64,000 nucleotides of DNA from Cellvibrio mixtus subsp. mixtus J3-8. Lineage in GTDB: Bacteria > Pseudomonadota > Gammaproteobacteria > Pseudomonadales > Cellvibrionaceae. Numbering within the stretch: position 1 is the first letter of the stretch; every line of letters starts with the position of its first letter. Positions 13,300 through 25,210 of this stretch are shown here, piece after piece. A model generated the notes under the pieces. It had not been told where the DNA came from. It worked only from the letters and a program-made list of their open reading frames with translations, and searched no databases. The stretch covers positions 61,922-125,921 of the forward strand of contig NZ_KN266210.1 in NCBI RefSeq assembly GCF_000766945.1. The letters run 5' to 3'. Made by a program: the position numbers and the translations under genes.

Positions 13300-13335
13300 T
13301 TGAGTTCACACATTAATTCGCTGTGATCCCGACAG

Positions 13336-13355
13336 AGGCGCCTACGGGCGCCTTT
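13336..13355 (+). terminator. Leaky terminator between lipoprotein and receptor
   Basis: A 7-bp GC-rich stem, AGGCGCC/GGCGCCT, closes a UACG tetraloop of the very stable C(UNCG)G class, but only three T residues follow. This fits partial termination that lowers receptor expression relative to the lipoprotein. Confidence 0.65.
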
Positions 13356-13403
13356 GTCACAAGAAGCCCTCTCCCATTGCCTCGCAGATACAAGGTTTAC
13401 ACC

Positions 13404-16112
13404 ATGCAGACACTAACGACCAAGCGCCGCCAGCTTTTTCTGGCGATCACCGCCGCTACGCTGGGATTTTGCAATCTCGCTGCTGCACAAGAAGCGGAAA
13501 CCAATGAAGCACCTATTGATGCAAATGCAGAAGTTATCGATGCACCCGTTGTTGAAGAGATGTTAATTACCGGCCGTCAGCAAACCGCTGCACAAGCAGT
13601 AATTACCGAACGACTGGAAGATCCATTCGCTGCCGATTTAATGAGTTCAGATCAATTATCACGCACCGGTGACTCCACCGTTGCTATCGCCCTGAGCCGT
13701 ATCCCCGGTGTAACAGTTCTGGATGGAAAATATGTTTACGTACGCAGCCTCGGTGAGCGTTACTCAAGCACAACCTTAAACGGTGCAGCAGTTCCCTCCC
13801 CTGAACTTACTCGCAACGTCTTGCCGCTGGATTTAATTCCATCCAGCATTGTTGAGACGTTAAAAATCCAGAAAGCTTATTCCCCTGAACTGCCCGCCAA
13901 CTTTGGTGGTGGCAGTGTCGATATCCGCACCAAAGGTGTTCCCGATAAATTTGTGTTCAGCGTATCCATGGGTACCGGATTAAATTTTGACAGCGACGAC
14001 GGTTGGACCCATGCAAACCATGGAGAAAAAAACCATATGCCTGCGGTAATTGATAATGCGTTAGATACCTATCGCGGCAAACTGGGCATTCAAAATATTA
14101 CCGATACTTATCGGAACGCAAACCCATCGGCAACAACCACGGAAAGCAGCGCATTTGGAACAAAAACCAATCGCGACTTACTATTGTCTTTAAATCGCGA
14201 TGTAGAAATCTACAAGAAAAATTTACCCGTCGATTTTTCAGGCAGCCTGGCGTTGGGTAACAATTGGCAACTCAATGATGATTTTTCATTAGGTGCGGTC
14301 GTTAACTTTTCGCAAGACACCAAATGGCGTAACAAAGATCAGGAGCGGGAAGAAATCGGCTCACCTGATGAACGCAACTCAAAAACAGAACGCACCAGTG
14401 AAGAAACCCGCCAGGTTATGTCCACCAACGTTGGTTTGAATTACCAGGACATGCACAATCTGCAAGCCAGTTTCTATCACATTGAAAATATCCACGATGA
14501 AGCGCGCGTTAAAACAGGTTACGACAACAGTATTTACAGGCTCGCTGATGGTAGCCAATATATTATTTATGATACGCGCCTGGAAAATCGTGAATTGGAA
14601 GTAGGTCAACTCTCTGGTGAACACAAATTTGATCAATTCAACTCCGATCATTTGGACACACTGGTGATTGATTGGTTTTATTCCGACTCAACCGTCAAAA
14701 CCGATATTCCGAATCACACCACTGTTGCAGGTGATAACACAATTAATCCCCTCACAGCAGAAGTGATCAGCACTCAATTGTCGCCACGCCCGGCAATGGC
14801 TGCATTTGAATTCCTGAACCTGGAAGATAATGTTATTAGCAACGGATGGAATGCCAAAGTTCCGTTGCTATTTGATACGTTGAAATTAACCCTGTCGGGT
14901 GGTTTTAATTACAACGAAAAATCACGTGAATATTATGGCTATACAATCAACGTTAATGGTTCAGGCAATCAAAGTGCTGTACTGAGCGGTAACGTGAATG
15001 ATGTGTTGAATAGCAATCGCATTAATGACCTCAATAATAAATTTGAGGTAACGGCGGGGGGCGGCTTCGGTACTGAAAGTTATGTTGCCGGTCAAATTAC
15101 CGAAGGTGCTTACGGTATGTTTGATGCGAACTGGGATGATACCTGGCGCGTAACCGGCGGTGCGCGTTATGAAACGTTCAAGCAAGGCCTGTTGCCTATC
15201 GACTTGCTGGACTACACCGGCAATAGCCTGAATAAAATTATTGATGAAATTATCAATAATCCCGGTCAACGCTATGGTTTCACCCAGGATGATTGGTACC
15301 CATCTCTCGCTATCACCTATATGAATGAAGGCTTCATGAATACCGAGGCATTTCAGGTCCGTTTGAGTGCGAGTGAAACGGTAGTGCGTCCTGATCTACG
15401 TGAAATGTCGGATGTGGTTTATATTGATACCGAACTCGGCATGCGCGTAAAAGGTAATTCAACACTGGAGTTTTCTGAATTAACTCACTACGACCTGCGC
15501 GCAGAATGGTTCTTTGAAAGCGGCAACAATCTCACTGCAACACTGTTTTATAAAGATATTGCCAACCCTATCGAAAGTACTCGCACACCCGGCTCTGATG
15601 ATGACGTAATCCTCACCTTCGAAAATGCGTTGAGCGGTGAAATTTACGGTTTGGAATTGGAGGGCCTGTACAATATTGGAGCTGGATTCTTCACCTCATC
15701 CAACCTCACACTTAGCGATTCTGAAATTGTGTCACCGGAAGGTGTAGGCTACACCAACGCCATACGTCCAATGACCGGACAATCAGAGTATGTACTTAAC
15801 ACACAACTCGGATTCGATTCGGAAGATGGCAAGCACAGTGCCTCATTAGTTTATAACCTGTTTGGTGAACGTTTGTTCTTCGCCGCCCGAAATATTGGCA
15901 ACCATCAGGATGCATATGAGCAACCATTTAACTCACTGGACCTGACTTATTCCTGGTTCCCTACCGATACGCTCACCACCAAAGTGAAGCTGGGGAATAT
16001 CCTCAATGAGGAACGCGTGTTTGAACAAATGAACGATCAAGGTAGAAATGTCGAAATCTTAAAACAAAAAGTAGGAACCAGCTTCAGCCTGGATGTGAAG
16101 TATACCTATTAA
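13404..16112 (+). CDS. TonB-dependent outer-membrane receptor
   Basis: This is a 902-residue receptor. A signal peptide ends around NLAAAQ, followed by an acidic linker and a TonB-box-like EEMLITG. The plug domain contains IALSRIPGVTVLDGKYVYVRSLGERYSSTTLNGAAVPSPE, and the barrel ends on an aromatic residue (VKYTY). I start at ATG 13404 (MQTLTTKRR), which begins the signal peptide; the frame opens at 13323 inside the preceding hairpin. The plug is of the large-substrate type, without siderophore-specific features, and the ligand is unknown. It is flanked by the lipoprotein and the double TonB-C-like protein, so it is the central pore of a three-gene uptake set. Confidence 0.93.
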   Translation: MQTLTTKRRQLFLAITAATLGFCNLAAAQEAETNEAPIDANAEVIDAPVVEEMLITGRQQTAAQAVITERLEDPFAADLMSSDQLSRTGDSTVAIALSRIPGVTVLDGKYVYVRSLGERYSSTTLNGAAVPSPELTRNVLPLDLIPSSIVETLKIQKAYSPELPANFGGGSVDIRTKGVPDKFVFSVSMGTGLNFDSDDGWTHANHGEKNHMPAVIDNALDTYRGKLGIQNITDTYRNANPSATTTESSAFGTKTNRDLLLSLNRDVEIYKKNLPVDFSGSLALGNNWQLNDDFSLGAVVNFSQDTKWRNKDQEREEIGSPDERNSKTERTSEETRQVMSTNVGLNYQDMHNLQASFYHIENIHDEARVKTGYDNSIYRLADGSQYIIYDTRLENRELEVGQLSGEHKFDQFNSDHLDTLVIDWFYSDSTVKTDIPNHTTVAGDNTINPLTAEVISTQLSPRPAMAAFEFLNLEDNVISNGWNAKVPLLFDTLKLTLSGGFNYNEKSREYYGYTINVNGSGNQSAVLSGNVNDVLNSNRINDLNNKFEVTAGGGFGTESYVAGQITEGAYGMFDANWDDTWRVTGGARYETFKQGLLPIDLLDYTGNSLNKIIDEIINNPGQRYGFTQDDWYPSLAITYMNEGFMNTEAFQVRLSASETVVRPDLREMSDVVYIDTELGMRVKGNSTLEFSELTHYDLRAEWFFESGNNLTATLFYKDIANPIESTRTPGSDDDVILTFENALSGEIYGLELEGLYNIGAGFFTSSNLTLSDSEIVSPEGVGYTNAIRPMTGQSEYVLNTQLGFDSEDGKHSASLVYNLFGERLFFAARNIGNHQDAYEQPFNSLDLTYSWFPTDTLTTKVKLGNILNEERVFEQMNDQGRNVEILKQKVGTSFSLDVKYTY

Positions 16113-16469: not shown

Positions 16470-16564
16470 GTGTGTTATGGCGAGTGCTAATCTGACAATG
16501 AAGTCGGGAATCCATGACCCATTAGGGTGCAGATTGCCATTTTTTGATTCACGAGGAGCACAAT

Positions 16565-17290
16565 ATGACTAACAACATCTTAAAAAAATACTTTCGCTCA
16601 CTGGCAATTCTAGCAGCCGTCACCCCGCTTGCGAGTTACGCTACCGCTTATACGCCCGCAAAATTTGGTAATGCAGCTGACACCCTGAGCAAGCAAATTA
16701 CCCTGCCCGCATCTTTTGGTGAAGGCGTTAAAACGGTATCGGTCTATTGTCAGGCAGATGTATTGACGAGCGGGAATATCAATGCGGTTACCTGCTATGA
16801 AAATAGTCCATTGGTTTCCATGCAAAAAACTACTGAATCCGCACTCAAATCTTCAACATTTGAACCCGCCACAATCGATGGCAAAGCGGTACCGGTAAGA
16901 ATGCAATTGCGCGTGGTTTATTCACTGGGTGGAACACAAGCACCGATTGTGTTGCTACCTAACCTCGGCACCTTGCAAGCGCAGTACGGTACTTACTACT
17001 ATGCTCCGCAAGAGCGACTGGATACCAATGACTGGTATGCCAATTACACAACAAAAGAACGTGGCGATGGAAAATTATTTTTCGCGGAAGGAAAAACCAC
17101 ACGTGTAATGGCCAATATTGAGGCCGATGGCAGAGTAGAAACTGTTAGCACTTTGGAAGCTGCCTTGCGCAAGCAAGCCGATGCAACCAGCATTGAAAAC
17201 TCGCTGAAAAAATCGAAATTCATTCCTGGTTTTGTAGAAAACAAACCAACTGCCATGCACTACATTGCTGTAGTTAATTATCAAAAATAA
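16565..17290 (+). CDS. Exported protein with two TonB-C-terminal-like repeats
   Basis: This is a 241-residue protein with a signal peptide ending near SYATA. It contains two segments shaped like the TonB C-terminal domain: about residues 46-120 (ALKSSTFEPATIDGKAVPVRM...VVYSL) and about 175-239 (EADGRVETVS...SLKKSKFIPGFVENKP...VVNY). It has no N-terminal anchor followed by a Pro-rich spacer, so it is not a normal energy transducer. A periplasmic or outer-membrane partner of the adjacent receptor is a reasonable guess. I start at ATG 16565, preceded by GAGGAG, rather than at 16544. It has its own promoter region and terminator. Confidence 0.65.
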   Translation: MTNNILKKYFRSLAILAAVTPLASYATAYTPAKFGNAADTLSKQITLPASFGEGVKTVSVYCQADVLTSGNINAVTCYENSPLVSMQKTTESALKSSTFEPATIDGKAVPVRMQLRVVYSLGGTQAPIVLLPNLGTLQAQYGTYYYAPQERLDTNDWYANYTTKERGDGKLFFAEGKTTRVMANIEADGRVETVSTLEAALRKQADATSIENSLKKSKFIPGFVENKPTAMHYIAVVNYQK

Positions 17291-19271: not shown

Positions 19272-20012
19272 TCACTCAAAATGACTGATAACGCTATCTC
19301 TATACAACCCTTCCAATAGTATAAATGCCTGTTTTTTAAGCATAGTAACATCGGAATATTGCAATTCCGCTGCGATGGTTTCCAAGTGGTTATTTAACGG
19401 TTGGTCATCAGACTGCAATAAAAATAATAATCGCGCAGTGAGCAAGTTAGCTGCGCTAAAACATACAACATCCCTGCGATTGCGATAAACCAACAATTGG
19501 GTAGGCTCCACCTGCCAATGCGGGAAAGCCGCAGACACTTTATGGACCGGGTATTGGTAGGTCAGGCAAACAGCAACCGGGGAAACACGCGGCCGGGAAT
19601 TTTCCACATCCGTTGGAAAAACCCCGGCATCCGGAATTACATCCGTGCTGACATCCAATGCCAGTTCAATCCATTCATAATGAATCAACTCTAAAAGATA
19701 TGCTGGATCGCCGTCGCGCAACCCTCGCACTTGCAATGTATATTGCACAAACTCATCACTGATCTGCACGAAATACGGCGTTTGGCAGTCATGGTTCTGA
19801 ATAAATTCGCGAACCAATTTATGCCATGAATTATCGCCCAATATGGAACAGGTTACAGGAAATACATTAGCAATAAAGTTTTCAATATTGTTGTAAACCA
19901 GATCGCGGTAAATATGCAGCCGACGAGTTTCAACATTCGCAGGGGCCGGGCTTTGCTCCGGCGAGCGCAGGTAAGCGGTGAGTTCTAATTGGATTTGTTG
20001 AAATGTTTTCAT
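19272..20012 (-). CDS. bufC: DUF2063 family partner of MNIO enzyme (BufC/HvfC type)
   Basis: This 246-residue soluble protein has the DUF2063 N-terminal signature (RLHIYRDLVYNNIENFIANVFPVTCSILGDNSW...FIQNH) and a C-terminal winged-helix-like region. In known bufferin-type operons the DUF2063 protein binds the precursor peptide and delivers it to the DUF692/MNIO enzyme. Its ATG overlaps the stop of the MNIO gene by four bases (ATGA), so the two are translationally coupled. No DoxX-family gene follows, unlike many related operons. Confidence 0.88.
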   Translation of the reverse strand: MKTFQQIQLELTAYLRSPEQSPAPANVETRRLHIYRDLVYNNIENFIANVFPVTCSILGDNSWHKLVREFIQNHDCQTPYFVQISDEFVQYTLQVRGLRDGDPAYLLELIHYEWIELALDVSTDVIPDAGVFPTDVENSRPRVSPVAVCLTYQYPVHKVSAAFPHWQVEPTQLLVYRNRRDVVCFSAANLLTARLLFLLQSDDQPLNNHLETIAAELQYSDVTMLKKQAFILLEGLYRDSVISHFE

Positions 20013-20851
20013 CGGCTATTTTGCTGGCGAATTTTAATTTCAGTAATTTCCGCTATTAATTCTGGCAGCGGCGGAATATTGAAATCCCGTTCCAGCAAAG
20101 TAGGTTTCACACCAAATAATTCGTAGGTTTTTTCCAGCAATTGCCACACAGGATGAATTACCGCAGTGCCATGGGTATCCACGCGCAAATCTTCCGCTTC
20201 CTCATAATGTCCGGCGATATGAGTATAGGCAATACGTTCACCGGGCATGCTGGCAAGAAATTCGTATGGGTTATAACCGTGGTTAATACTGTTGACGTAA
20301 ATATTGTTAACGTCCAGTAACAAAGCACAATCTGCTTTAGCAATCACTGCATTAATAAATTCGCTTTCACTCATTTCCTGCTGCGGAGCATAGTAGTAAG
20401 AGGAATTTTCGATCGCGATACGTTGCCCTAAAATATCCTGGGCCTGCAGGATACGCTCAGCAACATAGTCAACCGCTTCTTCGGTAAATGGAATGGGTAA
20501 TAAATCGTAAAGCTGGCCCTGGTCACTGCAATAACTTAAATGTTCGCTGTAATAACGAATTCCATGTTCACGCATGAATGTTTTTATGGAGCTTAATAAA
20601 TCAGTGTTAAGCGGGGCGGGTGAGCCTATCGATAAAGACAAGCCATGACAAACAAACGGAAAACGTTCAGTGTATGAGCGAAATTTTTTGCCCAGGCGTC
20701 CGCCAATATTAATCCAGTTTTCCGGGGCAACTTCCAGAAACTGAATATCGTCGTCCGTTAAATGTTGAAGTGTATCAAGTAAACTCCGGCGCAAGCCCAA
20801 GCCTGCACCGGAAACGTCTGCAATATAATCCATAAGAGGATTAACGAGCAT
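20009..20851 (-). CDS. bufB: DUF692/MNIO multinuclear iron enzyme (BufB type)
   Basis: This 280-residue TIM-barrel protein belongs to the multinuclear non-heme iron-dependent oxidative family. Characterised members convert Cys residues of precursor peptides to oxazolone/thioamide or 5-thiooxazole groups. Conserved likely iron ligands are visible: H69 (CHGLSLS), E103 (YSEHLSY), E148-N149 (AIENSSYY), D180 (LLLDVNN), H191, H211 and H215 (THIAGH), D225/H227 (DTHG) and E254 (LLERD). The start codon overlaps the precursor stop by one base (TAATG), which supports this start over Met7. The adjacent precursor carries exactly the Cys motifs such enzymes act on. Confidence 0.92.
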   Translation of the reverse strand: MLVNPLMDYIADVSGAGLGLRRSLLDTLQHLTDDDIQFLEVAPENWINIGGRLGKKFRSYTERFPFVCHGLSLSIGSPAPLNTDLLSSIKTFMREHGIRYYSEHLSYCSDQGQLYDLLPIPFTEEAVDYVAERILQAQDILGQRIAIENSSYYYAPQQEMSESEFINAVIAKADCALLLDVNNIYVNSINHGYNPYEFLASMPGERIAYTHIAGHYEEAEDLRVDTHGTAVIHPVWQLLEKTYELFGVKPTLLERDFNIPPLPELIAEITEIKIRQQNSR

Positions 20852-21177
20852 TATTCTGCTTTTTTCTCTTCTTTAGTATCCTTGGTTGCGTCTTTGGTTT
20901 TTTCCTTATCTGCACCGCATTTACCTTCGCCACACTTTTGCTCACCTTCAGCTTTCTTATCGCCTTTTGACTCCTTATGTTCAGCAGCACACTTACCTTC
21001 GCCACATTTGTGCTCGCCTTCCGATTTGGTTGCGTGGTTGTCTGCCAGGGTATACCCGGCATTCAATTGTGTCGCTGCAAAAGTCGCGTCTGCAGCGGAT
21101 GCAACGGGAGCCAGCGCAGCAGACGCAACAAAAGCGGCGCCGAGCAAAGCAGACATAGAGGACATTTTATTATTCAT
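20851..21177 (-). CDS. bufA: Bufferin-like RiPP precursor with two KCGEGKC motifs
   Basis: This is a 108-residue precursor. It has a Sec-type leader (SALLGAAFVASAALAPVASAA), a short linker, and a Lys/Glu-rich tail with a duplicated block EGExKCGEGKC about 24 residues apart. These give its only four Cys. The EGKCG-type motif is the modification site in HvfA/bufferin (BufA1) peptides, which bind copper in the periplasm after MNIO processing. Two ATGs are adjacent (21180 and 21177). GGAG lies three bases before the first and six before the second, so I prefer 21177. It is the first gene of a bufA-bufB-bufC operon. Copper binding is inferred from the family. Confidence 0.85.
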   Translation of the reverse strand: MNNKMSSMSALLGAAFVASAALAPVASAADATFAATQLNAGYTLADNHATKSEGEHKCGEGKCAAEHKESKGDKKAEGEQKCGEGKCGADKEKTKDATKDTKEEKKAE

Positions 21178-21247
21178 CATAAACTCCAGCGTGTTGGTTA
21201 AGTGTTGGTGGATCGTTTAAATCAGGGTGAAAACTAACATACCATAC

Positions 21248-24200
21248 TCAACCTTGAGCATCCAACATGGCTTGTTCCCACTGTTTATCCATACGTTTAT
21301 CCGATACCGGCACCTGGGTTTTGAGCGTTTGGGCAAATAATGAAATACGCAACTCCTCAATCCACCAACGGTATTCAAGTAACGCCAGGTTTTGCGTTAA
21401 ACGATAATCACCCTCTTTCGCCAAATAATCCATTAACCGCTGCCAATGGGGTGCAACTTCAGCAAGCTGCAATTTATCTTTTTGCGGATTGAGTGCGGCT
21501 TTTTCCAATCGCTGCAAGATACCGCGCATATATTTTGGATATTGCTGTAGCCATTGCGGTGGGGTTTTATACACCAACCCGGGATAAAACAATTGCGTTA
21601 ATTGCTGGTTAATATCGCTAAGGGTAAACGCCAGCATCAGTGCATTTTTTTGTTGCTTTAACTGCTTTTTCACATCAACCAATAACTTCAGGCTACTCAC
21701 CAGATGATTGGCAAGCTCCTGTGCGTGCGCAATCAGCTTGTCCTTTATCTGATTAATCTGCTCATCAAACGCCGTTTTGGTGCGCAATAATTGTTGTTGA
21801 TCCGGCACCGCTAATTGTTTTATTGCCGCCATAATTAAATCGTCGGCCACCTGTTCGCGATTACCAATGCCCGCAAGCGTTAACGCAACGTCTTGTCCTT
21901 TTAGCAATTCTTTTTGCAAATACTTAACAGTTTGTGCCAACGACAAATACACCAAACGCGTTAATCCGCGCTGGGTCAAAGCCAATGCTTGCAGGGGATT
22001 GTCCAACACCTGCAATGCAACAGAGGTGTGTTTATCAACCAGGGCGGGATAGGCACGGATACTGATTCCACCACGAGGCAACTGGATAGCGTGAGGCAAC
22101 GTATCAAAATCCCAACTGGTAATATTATCGCGCTCAATATTGGTTGCCGCCGACTGAATATTTTGTTGCACTTTTTCGCGGTATTTTTCGCGCAGCGGAT
22201 TTAAATCGCGCCCACTGGCGATGATTTTTCCCTTGTCATCCACCACATGGATGTTAAAGCGATAATAATCATCCACGCTGGTTTCCAGCCAGGCCTCTTT
22301 GGGAATATCCACACCGGTGAGGCGTTTTAATTGCAAGCCCATAGCCTCGGTCAGGGGTTTATTATCGGGTGTTAATGTCGCCAATAATTTATCCACTACA
22401 TCCGGTACCGGTACAAAATGTTTGCGCAAATTTTTAGGCAGGGATTTAATCAGGCCGATGCATTTATCGCGTAGCATTCCCGGCACCAACCATTCAAGGC
22501 GTTGCTCGGGAACCTGATGTAACACACTCATCGGTACATGAATGCTGACACCATCAAACGCATGATTGGGCTCAAAATGATAACTGAGAGGAAACACCAT
22601 GCCGCGCCATTCAAGTTCATTGGGGAATTGCGCTTCAGTGATATCCCCTGCTCCATGGCGCATCAACGTTTCGCGCGTGATATAGAGCAATTGCGGATTC
22701 GTTTGTTCCGCCTTTTTACGCCAGGATTCAAATCCAGCGAGGTTGGTTATGTGCGACGGGATACGTTCATTATAAAAATCAAAAATCACTTGTTCATCTA
22801 CAACAATATCGCGCCGACGGGATTTCGCTTCCAACTCTTCAAGTGCCAACAACAATTGTTGCTGATGCGTATAAAAATCCTTAAAGCCCGCCTGTTGCTG
22901 CAAATGTTTACGCTTGGGATGCTGCGCGTATTGCCCCTCCACCAACGCTGCGCGAATAAATACTTCGCGCGATTGCGCAGGATCAATATGACTGTAATTA
23001 ACCGATTTTTTCTCAACAATCGTTAATCCATAGAGCGTGATTTTTTCATAAGCCATCACCTGCCCTGCACGCGAATCGTAATGCGGTTCAAAATGCTGGC
23101 GCTTGATTAAATGCTCCGCCGCTGCAATCACCCACTCCGGTTCTATTTTGGCAACTGTATGCGCAAATAATTTTGAAGTTTCAATCAACTCTGCTGCCAT
23201 CAACCATTTAGGTGTTTTTTTAGCGAGCGATGAACCGGGAAAAATCGCGAACTTACGATTGCGCGCACCAAGGTATTCCCGCTCTTCGTGGTTGAAACCT
23301 AGATTACCCAGCAAGCCCGTTAACAAGGCTTTATGCACTGCTTCGAAATTGGCGGGTTCGCTATTAATGCGCAAACCCAAATCTTTAATGGCTATGCATA
23401 ATTGATGGTGCACATCGCGCCACTCCCGCAAACGCAAATAGGACAAAAACTCCTTTTTGCATAATTTTCGTAATTGGTTTTGCGATAGCTCTTGCCGTTG
23501 GGTTTCAAAATAATCCCATAAATTTACATATCCGAGAAAATCTGAATGGTCTACCCAAAAACGGCGATGCATTTGATCAGCCGCTTGTTGTTTCTCGGCC
23601 GGGCGCTCGCGCGGATCTTGTACTGAAAGCGCGCTGACGATAATTAATAATTCGCGCAAGCAGGATTGTTCCTGCGCTGCCAGCACCATACGAGCAAGGC
23701 GCGGGTCCAACGGTAATTTTGCAAGTTGCTGCCCAACCGGTGTTAACTGATTTTTGGTATTTACCGCATGGAGTTCTTCCAGCAATTTGAAACCATCACT
23801 GATCAGGCGATGATCCGGGGCATCAATAAAGGGAAATTTATGGATATCCCCCATCCGTAATTGCAGCATTTGCAAAATAACAGCGGCGAGATTGGTGCGC
23901 AAAATTTCTGCATCAGTAAACTCGGGGCGCGAGCTAAAATCCTCTTCACTGTACAAGCGAATACAAATACCTTCGGCCACACGGCCACAGCGGCCTTTAC
24001 GCTGGTTAGCACTGGCTTGGGAAACAGGTTCAATCGGCAGGCGTTGCACTTTAGTGCGATAAGAGTAACGGCTGATACGCGCAAATCCCGGATCAATCAC
24101 GTAGCGAATTCCGGGGACAGTAATAGACGTTTCTGCAACGTTGGTTGCCAATACAATTCGGCGCCCCGTATGCGGTGCAAATACCTTCTGCTGTTCAGCC

Positions 24201-25210
24201 AAACTCAGGCGTGCATAAAACGGAATCACTTCCATATGGGCAAACTGCGCTTTACGTAAAGCTTCTGCGGTTTCGCGGATTTCCCGCTCCCCACTTAAAA
24301 ACACCAGAATGTCGCCGCCGCGGACGCCGGAACCGGTTTTTTCGTGTGATTCAATTTCACGCACCGCATCCACAATTGCGGCATATTGATCCGGGTCAGC
24401 ATCCTCTCCATCATCATTTTCAAATTCGTAAAGCGGGCGATACCAGACTTCAACCGGATAAGTGCGGCCGGACACTTCGATAATCGGGGCATTATTAAAA
24501 TGTTGCGAGAAACGCTCCAGATCAATGGTTGCTGAGGTGATAATTAATTTTAAATCCGGGCGTTTCGGCAGCAGCTGTTTTAAATAACCCAGCAGGAAAT
24601 CAATATTTAAACTGCGCTCATGTGCTTCATCAATAATCAATGTGTCGTATTTATTTAAAAACGGATCGTTCTGGATTTCTGCCAGCAATATCCCGTCTGT
24701 CATCACCTTAATTAAGGTGTTTTCATTGGATTGATCGCTAAACCTGACTTGATAACCAACCTTTTCGCCCAGTGTCGTTTTCAATTCTTCCGCAATTCGA
24801 TTGGCAACTGTATTTGCAGCAATACGGCGCGGTTGTGTGTGCCCAATCAAGCCTTTCACACCACGGCCAATACTCAAACAAATTTTGGGGATTTGCGTGG
24901 TTTTACCGGAACCAGTCTCCCCCGCAAGAACTACTACCTGATTATCCGCAATAATTTGCGCGATTTCTTCGCGTTTTTCGCACACAGGCAAAGCGGGAAA
25001 CTCAATCACCGCTGGAACTAATTGCTGGCGGCGCATCACCTCAGCCTGTGACTGCAACAATTGCTGTTGCCATTTTTCCAGCGCTTGATCGTGGGGTTTA
25101 CCTGTACGCGCCAGTTTTTCTATCTCGCTCAAACGACGGGATAGCTTGTGGTAATCGCGCCCCATCACGTGGGTAATGGATTGTTTGTAACTTGACCAGG
25201 GATTTGACAT
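21248..25210 (-). CDS. hrpA: ATP-dependent RNA helicase HrpA
   Basis: This 1320-residue DEAH-box helicase contains Walker A GETGSGKTT (97-105), DEAH (194-197), SAT (motif III), and the motif VI region QRKGRCGRVAEG. The helicase-associated and OB-fold regions follow, then the long C-terminal DUF3418 extension that defines bacterial HrpA. E. coli HrpA acts on mRNA processing and resolves stalled or collided ribosomes. The length is normal. The start has a weak GAG element. The upstream 359-base region holds structured DNA described separately. Confidence 0.96.
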   Translation of the reverse strand: MSNPWSSYKQSITHVMGRDYHKLSRRLSEIEKLARTGKPHDQALEKWQQQLLQSQAEVMRRQQLVPAVIEFPALPVCEKREEIAQIIADNQVVVLAGETGSGKTTQIPKICLSIGRGVKGLIGHTQPRRIAANTVANRIAEELKTTLGEKVGYQVRFSDQSNENTLIKVMTDGILLAEIQNDPFLNKYDTLIIDEAHERSLNIDFLLGYLKQLLPKRPDLKLIITSATIDLERFSQHFNNAPIIEVSGRTYPVEVWYRPLYEFENDDGEDADPDQYAAIVDAVREIESHEKTGSGVRGGDILVFLSGEREIRETAEALRKAQFAHMEVIPFYARLSLAEQQKVFAPHTGRRIVLATNVAETSITVPGIRYVIDPGFARISRYSYRTKVQRLPIEPVSQASANQRKGRCGRVAEGICIRLYSEEDFSSRPEFTDAEILRTNLAAVILQMLQLRMGDIHKFPFIDAPDHRLISDGFKLLEELHAVNTKNQLTPVGQQLAKLPLDPRLARMVLAAQEQSCLRELLIIVSALSVQDPRERPAEKQQAADQMHRRFWVDHSDFLGYVNLWDYFETQRQELSQNQLRKLCKKEFLSYLRLREWRDVHHQLCIAIKDLGLRINSEPANFEAVHKALLTGLLGNLGFNHEEREYLGARNRKFAIFPGSSLAKKTPKWLMAAELIETSKLFAHTVAKIEPEWVIAAAEHLIKRQHFEPHYDSRAGQVMAYEKITLYGLTIVEKKSVNYSHIDPAQSREVFIRAALVEGQYAQHPKRKHLQQQAGFKDFYTHQQQLLLALEELEAKSRRRDIVVDEQVIFDFYNERIPSHITNLAGFESWRKKAEQTNPQLLYITRETLMRHGAGDITEAQFPNELEWRGMVFPLSYHFEPNHAFDGVSIHVPMSVLHQVPEQRLEWLVPGMLRDKCIGLIKSLPKNLRKHFVPVPDVVDKLLATLTPDNKPLTEAMGLQLKRLTGVDIPKEAWLETSVDDYYRFNIHVVDDKGKIIASGRDLNPLREKYREKVQQNIQSAATNIERDNITSWDFDTLPHAIQLPRGGISIRAYPALVDKHTSVALQVLDNPLQALALTQRGLTRLVYLSLAQTVKYLQKELLKGQDVALTLAGIGNREQVADDLIMAAIKQLAVPDQQQLLRTKTAFDEQINQIKDKLIAHAQELANHLVSSLKLLVDVKKQLKQQKNALMLAFTLSDINQQLTQLFYPGLVYKTPPQWLQQYPKYMRGILQRLEKAALNPQKDKLQLAEVAPHWQRLMDYLAKEGDYRLTQNLALLEYRWWIEELRISLFAQTLKTQVPVSDKRMDKQWEQAMLDAQG

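Follow-up and report, generated by a model that had tools for sequence, protein, structure and literature searches.

Does the three-gene operon at positions 19,272 to 21,180 of a 64,000-nucleotide stretch of the Cellvibrio mixtus subsp. mixtus J3-8 genome (the whole stretch is referred to as the window) make a bufferin, as a sequence-only reading of its genes had suggested, and how is it controlled, with neither a DoxX gene nor an extracytoplasmic function (ECF) sigma factor and anti-sigma pair beside it? It was found that the operon, which encodes a precursor of a ribosomally synthesized and post-translationally modified peptide (RiPP), an MNIO enzyme and a DUF2063 partner, is a member of the HvfA/HvfB/HvfC (EGKCG, "oxazolin"/captophorin) family and not of the DUF2282 bufferins. 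The best explanation as a whole is, very probably, that it is a working captophorin operon that has been cut off from a stress regulon. The genes and their parts are:

20851 to 21180, minus strand: hvfA-like precursor gene, 109 amino acids, with a Sec-type leader and four Cys
21094 to 21180, minus strand: probable Sec signal peptide, residues 1 to 29 (APVASA/ADATF), read by eye
20989 to 21021, minus strand: core block 1, EGEHKCGEGKC, residues 54 to 64 (Cys59 and Cys64), from the sequence
20917 to 20949, minus strand: core block 2, EGEQKCGEGKC, residues 78 to 88 (Cys83 and Cys88), from the sequence
20009 to 20851, minus strand: hvfB, MNIO (DUF692) maturase, 280 amino acids
19272 to 20012, minus strand: hvfC, DUF2063 partner with a RiPP recognition element (RRE)-type domain, 246 amino acids (PF09836 and PF22106)

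Most of the parts described in the sequence-only reading were borne out. The three genes are joined by TAATG (a 1-base overlap of the precursor gene and hvfB) and ATGA (a 4-base overlap of hvfB and hvfC), and the precursor combines a Sec-leader-like start with a duplicated EGExKCGEGKC block and only four Cys (59, 64, 83 and 88), all of them inside the two blocks. The metal ligands expected of a DUF692 enzyme are also in place: the motifs that we take to be MNIO ligands (HG, SEHLS, ENSSYY, DVNNIY, HIAGH, DTHG and LLERD) are present in the window enzyme, in regions alignable to 3bww, an H. somni DUF692 protein with a solved structure (E 5.7e-76), and HvfC aligns with 3dee (E 1.1e-13). In the literature, 3bww is named an MNIO and 3dee a PME1 protein (PMC13097082).

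The family assignment was made with curated profiles. The precursor scored 36.9 bits (cut-off 19.5) with the NCBIfam model NF050137, KCGExKCG_twice ("HvfA family"); the enzyme scored 437.8 bits (cut-off 360) with the HvfB model NF003818 and matched PF05114 at E 8.9e-103; and the partner scored 253.1 bits (cut-off 142) with the HvfC model NF050145. Because the profiles of one pathway match all three proteins, the operon is more than a chance arrangement, and the comparison with the HvfA and BufA families that had been proposed as a check places the enzyme inside the RiPP-modifying clade. A true bufferin (BufA1 or BufA2 with BufB) has an identical gene order, the BufB profile matches the window enzyme at E 3e-77, and the name "Buf_EGKCG" has been used for this group (PMC12452194). 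However, the enzyme reached only 259.5 bits with the BufB equivalog (cut-off 310) while exceeding the HvfB cut-off, the precursor had no Pfam match, at E <= 1 neither Pfam nor NCBIfam gave it a DUF2282 or BufA2 assignment, and a genuine BufA2 precursor was found in a sister genome (locus L049; NF050166, 82.9 bits, cut-off 60). We regard the bufferin explanation as most improbable, and membership of the bufferin family is refuted by the profile cut-offs. Therefore, of the description as a bufferin-type RiPP operon, the precursor/MNIO/DUF2063 arrangement stands, whereas the type does not (BufB is under its cut-off and the precursor is of the HvfA/EGKCG type); "bufferin-like" is a fair loose name because the group has been called "Buf_EGKCG/oxazolin" (PMC12452194).

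A methanobactin-like chalkophore, secreted for copper scavenging, would also be made with an MNIO enzyme, and the MbnB profile matches HvfB at E 5.4e-12; in addition, at a distance of about 3 kb, the opposite strand carries a TonB-dependent receptor gene (13323 to 16112, plus; PF00593, 66.4 bits). This explanation is hardly credible, since the MbnB equivalog score of 45.8 bits is far under the cut-off of 325, which rules out membership of the methanobactin family, the partner is DUF2063/HvfC rather than MbnC, and a porin gene and two further genes stand between the receptor gene and the operon.

The HvfA/HvfB/HvfC operon has well-described relatives. About 2,000 Buf_EGKCG/oxazolin precursors have been reported (PMC12452194), and 5-thiooxazoles have been assigned to fontiphorin, oxazolin and gonophorin, for which the class name captophorins was given (PMC13097082). 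In Microbulbifer, the precursors encoded by the mmrABC cluster carry five to eight Cys within EGKCG units, each Cys losing 4 H; its thiooxazoles were assigned tentatively, the product is bulbicupramide, and copper binding appears in the title of the paper (PMC12538549). In Haemophilus, hvfABC occurs with the DoxX-like HvfX (PMC13419390). Taken together, these papers on HvfA/oxazolin, mmrABC and the captophorins place the window operon among a known kind. The likeness to mmrABC is close, as both are three-gene clusters of a leader-bearing precursor with EGKCG units, an MNIO and a DUF2063 partner, and the word DoxX is absent from the available text of the mmrABC paper; the differences are that the window precursor has four Cys rather than five to eight, and has EHKCG and EQKCG where the Microbulbifer precursors have the first EGKCG of each block (PMC12538549). 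By analogy, hvfABC would make a captophorin-type RiPP: HvfC, through its recognition domain, would present the precursor to HvfB, which would convert all four Cys in the EGExKCGEGKC blocks into 5-thiooxazoles by oxidation, and the modified peptide would be exported by Sec and bind copper in the periplasm. The modification of Cys and the binding of copper are thus what we infer for this peptide.

The absence of a neighbouring DoxX gene had been described as unusual, and this was evaluated in the taxonomic family set of 144 genomes, of which 138 had an HvfB profile match and 106 a match above the cut-off. The hvf loci of these 106 genomes (the window and 105 others) were compared with flanks of at most about 4 kb in either direction; seven loci were shorter than planned because of contig starts or ends, so that a DoxX gene further out would be missed there, and the profile for linked DoxX was built from HvfX-type seeds, so that other DoxX types could be missed. 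Within the stretches fetched, an HvfX-type DoxX was linked to hvf in 9 of the 106 loci and in none of the other 97, with 0 of 16 in the genus Cellvibrio. Therefore, a missing DoxX neighbour is the rule in the family, and the census rejects the view that it is unusual. The placing of the two motifs in a Lys/Glu-rich tail, also thought unusual, was seen in most relatives among those listed. A wider genome scan (the best 80 of 156 relatives) gave linked DoxX in 20 of 80 loci within the 2 kb fetched, and all five BufB-type Cellvibrio loci examined (L049 to L053) had one. HvfX-type DoxX genes are common in the relatives, mostly at other loci (among the matches listed). MNIO, DUF2063 and DoxX genes have been described as occurring "in various combinations" (PMC12452194), so a DoxX in the operon is optional.

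The window's operon has no HvfX-type DoxX, and a search of the whole genome gave none above the HvfX cut-off. The sole PF07681 DoxX of this genome, on contig 11, was considered as a hidden HvfX and came close, but was rejected as being under the cut-off (72.7 bits, cut-off 80); it has 38% identity over 99 residues to HvfX of genome G022.

As a separate observation on the BufB-type loci, four of them (L049, L050, L051 and L053) have the operon and its linked DoxX near hrpA, in the opposite orientation, within the fetched stretch; no hrpA was seen in the stretch fetched for the fifth, L052. HvfA- and BufA2-type copper-RiPP operons thus seem to have a common neighbourhood in four Cellvibrio genomes.

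The remark that no ECF sigma/anti-sigma pair adjoins the operon was correct for the window, where hrpA lies on the upstream side and a porin gene on the downstream side, and profile searches of these neighbours gave neither such a pair nor a DoxX gene. It is also a good lead: an ECF sigma orthologue is encoded away from hvf in 18 of 21 Cellvibrio genomes and is absent from the window's genome (G000), G015 and G016. Genomes were counted as ECF-bearing when the match reached about 1e-40, weaker ones of around 1e-21 to 1e-24 being assigned to other ECF factors; in the window's genome no orthologue was found at E 1e-20, and the best match was 4.5e-12 (28% identity). An HvfX-type DoxX accompanies the ECF gene in 12 of the 18 ECF-bearing Cellvibrio genomes. 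When 20 HvfX-type DoxX loci were fetched, DoxX was followed by an ECF gene in all 10 from Cellvibrio and had one next to it in 3 of the 10 from elsewhere (G044, G046 and G127). The open reading frame list gave an anti-sigma gene in 5 of the 10 Cellvibrio DoxX/ECF loci, and a zinc-finger anti-sigma pattern was present in 15 of the 17 Cellvibrio ECF loci read. At locus L178 of G022, DoxX is an HvfX (NF050144, 238.2 bits, cut-off 80), the sigma factor has sigma-70 regions 2 and 4, and the anti-sigma protein scored 60 bits (cut-off 50) with NF052368.

These loci share a promoter-like motif. Upstream of the ecf locus, TGTAAC-N18-TCTA matched exactly (10 of 10 positions) in 17/17 Cellvibrio genomes read; the remaining ECF-bearing genome, G021, which the position script did not place (17 of 18 read), has TGTAAC-N18-TCTG. 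Among the 15 Cellvibrio loci whose precursor is of the EGKCG type, 12 have the motif before hvfA; it also precedes the BufA2-like precursor in 5/5 loci fetched, that of L049 being confirmed as BufA2 by profile. With a tighter pattern, the 21 genus genomes gave 31 matches in 18 genomes, placed at doxX/ecf (13), hvfA (10), buf (6), msrP (1) and inside a pilin-like gene (1). The three genomes without the pattern (G000, G015 and G016) are exactly those without the ECF orthologue, and the other 18 have both. At msrP, the motif was present at 9 or 10 of 10 positions in 14 of 15 genomes read, with G021 as the exception, A or C replacing the first T in 11 genomes; the reversed pattern scored 6 to 8 there in the same 15. 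The count covers 15 of 16 genomes, G019 giving no MsrP start by pattern; MsrP was identified with NF003767 (473 bits, cut-off 207), and 5 of the 21 genomes, G015 and G016 included, had no MsrP match at 1e-30. In H. influenzae, RpoE2 and the ZAS-type anti-sigma factor HrsE control the hvf cluster and msrAB (PMC7907618), and msrP therefore fits in the Cellvibrio set. The motif resembles the meningococcal sigmaE consensus GTMAGBWTT-N12/13-CGTCTAAH (PMC2893595) and, less closely, the Caulobacter sigmaF sequence GTAACC-N16-CGAA (PMC3511200). In most Cellvibrio, the operon would thus be run by the ECF sigma factor and its ZAS-type anti-sigma factor through TGTAACAAA-N13-CRTCTA or a close variant.

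The link between the sigma gene and the motif was evaluated more widely in 104 of the 106 hvf loci, leaving out L048 (G033, no EGKCG precursor) and L118 (G081, at a contig end). The exact motif preceded hvfA in 20 of 25 ECF-bearing loci and in 0 of 79 ECF-less loci; at a score of at least 9 of 10 it preceded hvfA in 22 of the 25, and the reversed pattern did so in 0 of 25 ECF-bearing and 4 of 79 ECF-less loci. Gilvimarinus G048, which has no ECF match, carries a degenerate site scoring 8/10. In the Microbulbifer-group genomes (g22), ECF matches do not go beyond about 1e-24 and the exact motif is absent at hvfA. Outside the family, the exact motif occurred in 9 of 64 scan loci with a precursor and the reversed pattern in none; eight of the nine belong to Cellvibrio- or Gilvimarinus-like genomes and the ninth to Methylohalomonas lacus (L315).

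Three Microbulbifer-group loci (L094, L113 and L115) have TGTAACAAC-N13-CGACTA, or nearly so, some 375 bases upstream of the first KC motif in hvfA. Their genomes have no close ECF orthologue, and another sigma factor is possibly the reader of this site.

What became of this control in the window's genome can be read at two sites. First, the zas-ecf-doxX genes and motif of G022 (L178, 2753 to 4532) correspond to 290 non-aligning bases in the window's genome, where both flanks align well in one contig and no relic of zas-ecf-doxX was found (best tblastn E 0.87). Because this empty site sits inside a single contig, an assembly gap was rejected as the explanation of the missing DoxX. Second, the promoter pattern has no match in the window's genome, with a best score at hvfA of 7/10, the commonest score among ECF-less loci (44 of 79). 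The region upstream of hvfA contains:

21181 to 21247, minus strand: gap of 67 bases between hrpA and hvfA, without the TGTAAC-N18-TCTA motif of ECF-bearing relatives
21231 to 21241, minus strand: TATGTTAGTTT, a proximal promoter-like element (sequence pattern only)
21248 to 25210, minus strand: hrpA (TIGR01967, 1829 bits), the conserved upstream neighbour, codirectional with hvfA

Among relatives, hrpA adjoins hvfA in 15/15 Cellvibrio loci with an EGKCG-type hvfA (its frame is broken in L039); of the 16 Cellvibrio genomes in which HvfB is above the cut-off, 15 have the gene pair hvfA and hvfB beside hrpA, the exception being G033. The gap is 67 (window), 76 and 82 bases in the three ECF-less Cellvibrio genomes, relative to 142 to 283 bases in 11 of 12 ECF-bearing loci, L039 being unreadable. 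All three ECF-less genomes keep hvfABC. In the HrpA tree they stand apart, requiring 3 changes (3 to 3 over the 5 to 95% range of bootstraps), although the placement of G016 rests on a long branch; the absences of the ECF gene are probably three separate losses. Of the marks of a Neisseria-type sigmaE/ZAS regulon, the window's genome has neither the ECF/ZAS gene nor the motif at hvfA. In 10 of 15 Cellvibrio loci, including all three ECF-less ones, a proximal block, T(A/G)TGnTA(A/G)(G/T)TT, lies 40 to 61 bases upstream of hvfA; it could be a second, housekeeping promoter. A sigma-70 scan of the region gave no site at the proximal element and 2 sites in all, relative to a shuffle mean of 5.2, and a terminator scan gave 2 relative to 2.5. 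With the control locus and the hvfA promoter lost, hvfABC of the window's strain is presumed to be expressed at present, probably from the proximal element or through transcription continuing out of hrpA.

These losses might instead mean that the operon is a decaying relic, with its regulator and promoter gone and its Cys reduced to four. The ECF locus and the motif are indeed absent from the window's genome, and its four KC motifs are at the low end for the genus (G016 also has four, and 13 of the 14 other precursors have 5 to 9). However, the frames and ligand motifs are intact, all three ECF-less genus genomes retain the operon, and the dN/dS ratio was 0.04 to 0.07 for hvfB (relative to the four relatives with finite dS, which was near saturation) and 0.07 to 0.12 for hvfC (relative to relatives with finite estimates, dS being high). 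HvfB and HvfC therefore look constrained and the operon is likely in use, and we think decay improbable.

A further alternative is that this ECF factor does not recognize the motif, the two simply having a common ancestry or the motif being read by another sigma factor. The window's genome keeps the motif at msrP, G139 is an exception to the link, and there are few independent contrasts, all of which would fit this alternative. Nevertheless, the motif precedes the ecf locus itself in every genome read, it resembles the meningococcal sigmaE consensus (PMC2893595), and in three genomes that stand apart in the tree the gene is missing and hvfA lacks the motif as well. This alternative is therefore judged unlikely.

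Several results weigh against a working captophorin operon cut off from an ECF-controlled regulon. Regulation of hvfABC by the ECF factor is something that we infer from sequence only, as is the regulon as a whole. The motif pattern was derived from the same genomes, so that the genus counts are descriptive and do not test it independently. When reversed, the pattern still gave 13 matches in the genus genomes, so that the evidence lies in the placing of the matches and not in their number. In the wider set, five of the 79 ECF-less loci have the motif at 9 of 10 or better, the ECF relatives of G139 (57% identity) and G112 (38% identity) occur without a motif at hvfA, and ECF-bearing G041 has it at 8/10 only. 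When corrected for kinship with the HvfB tree, 4 supported independent pairs remained, of which 2 or 3 agree and the rest show no difference (exact motif); at a score of at least 9, an opposing pair appeared in 1 of 200 random pairings, and the result was not significant. In the window's genome, the msrP motif AGTAACAAA-N13-GAGTCTA (9/10; L361, contig 1 near 523789) is kept, one base off that of the relative G029, and its survival without the sigma gene therefore means either a recent loss or that another sigma factor reads the site. The proximal block is absent from the window's nearest relatives, G022, G027 and G029. Finally, the precursor scored 37.4 bits with the HvfA equivalog NF050188, under its cut-off of 95.

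The most extended form of the proposal, in which one ECF sigma factor, its gene distant from the peptide operons and frequently accompanied by an HvfX-type DoxX, drives HvfA- and BufA2-type operons and msrPQ as a scattered Cellvibrio regulon, with the hvfA link shared by Gilvimarinus and the switch and hvfA promoter lost three times among the genus genomes sampled, we consider to have about an even chance of being correct. It has partial parallels elsewhere. The H. influenzae hvf cluster is of the same HvfA/B/C family (PMC13419390, PMC13097082, PMC7907618), and RpoE2/HrsE are encoded away from it (PMC7907618), as the ECF gene is in Cellvibrio; the difference lies in HvfX, which is in the operon in Haemophilus, beside the ECF gene in the 12 Cellvibrio genomes mentioned, and below the cut-off in the window's genome. 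The Neisseria sigmaE operon NMB2140-2145, which encodes gonophorin, is likewise under an ECF factor and a ZAS anti-sigma factor (PMC2893595, PMC3240639, PMC13097082); its promoter is similar to the Cellvibrio motif in the -35 core, the spacing and the -10 TCTA (PMC2893595), and an Msr gene is in the regulon in both (PMC2893595, PMC3240639). In contrast to the Neisseria arrangement of one polycistronic operon plus msrA/msrB, the Cellvibrio loci are scattered, and the window's genome has no sigma gene. The Caulobacter DUF2282-DUF692-DUF2063-DoxX operon under sigmaF/NrsF is also an ECF-controlled precursor-MNIO-partner operon, but it differs in its DUF2282 precursor, its NrsF (DUF1109) regulator, its in-operon DoxX and the adjoining sigF (PMC3511200). 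No published account of such a Cellvibrio regulon was found among the matches listed, subscription journals being mostly outside the coverage.

The operon itself is one further member of a widespread family, and the useful part is its surroundings. If the proposal is true, a stress-induced peptide has become one that is made without the stress signal and without HvfX; HvfX would then be dispensable for the pathway, and such strains would be a natural experiment on its role. How MNIO peptide operons relate to DoxX and to stress sigma factors is not yet settled, and the role of DoxX has been left open (PMC13097082); genomes with hvfABC and no ECF locus or clear HvfX make both the need for HvfX and production under stress only testable among close relatives. 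The motif also offers a route to regulon members that gene-neighbourhood mining overlooks.

Three other loci were noted. The window's genome has a second MNIO gene (L002, contig 13, 24093 to 27842; PF05114, 193.6 bits), for which the best NCBIfam match was BufB at 158.8 bits, under every cut-off shown; a 233-residue unclassified protein follows, and the protein encoded upstream, of 151 residues, combines a twin-arginine-like leader with a CLNCGF motif. L002 is perhaps a further RiPP system with a PME-type 2 partner. In the window, the TonB-dependent receptor gene at 13323 to 16112 (plus strand; PF00593 and PF07715) is followed by a gene for a TonB_C-domain protein (16544 to 17290), both on the strand opposite to hvfABC. 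At L134 (G099), the HvfA-like precursor has EGMQHGEGMQHG repeats, a high content of Met and His and only two Cys; it lies beside an open hvfB, and a shift from Cys to Met/His metal binding is possible in this peptide.

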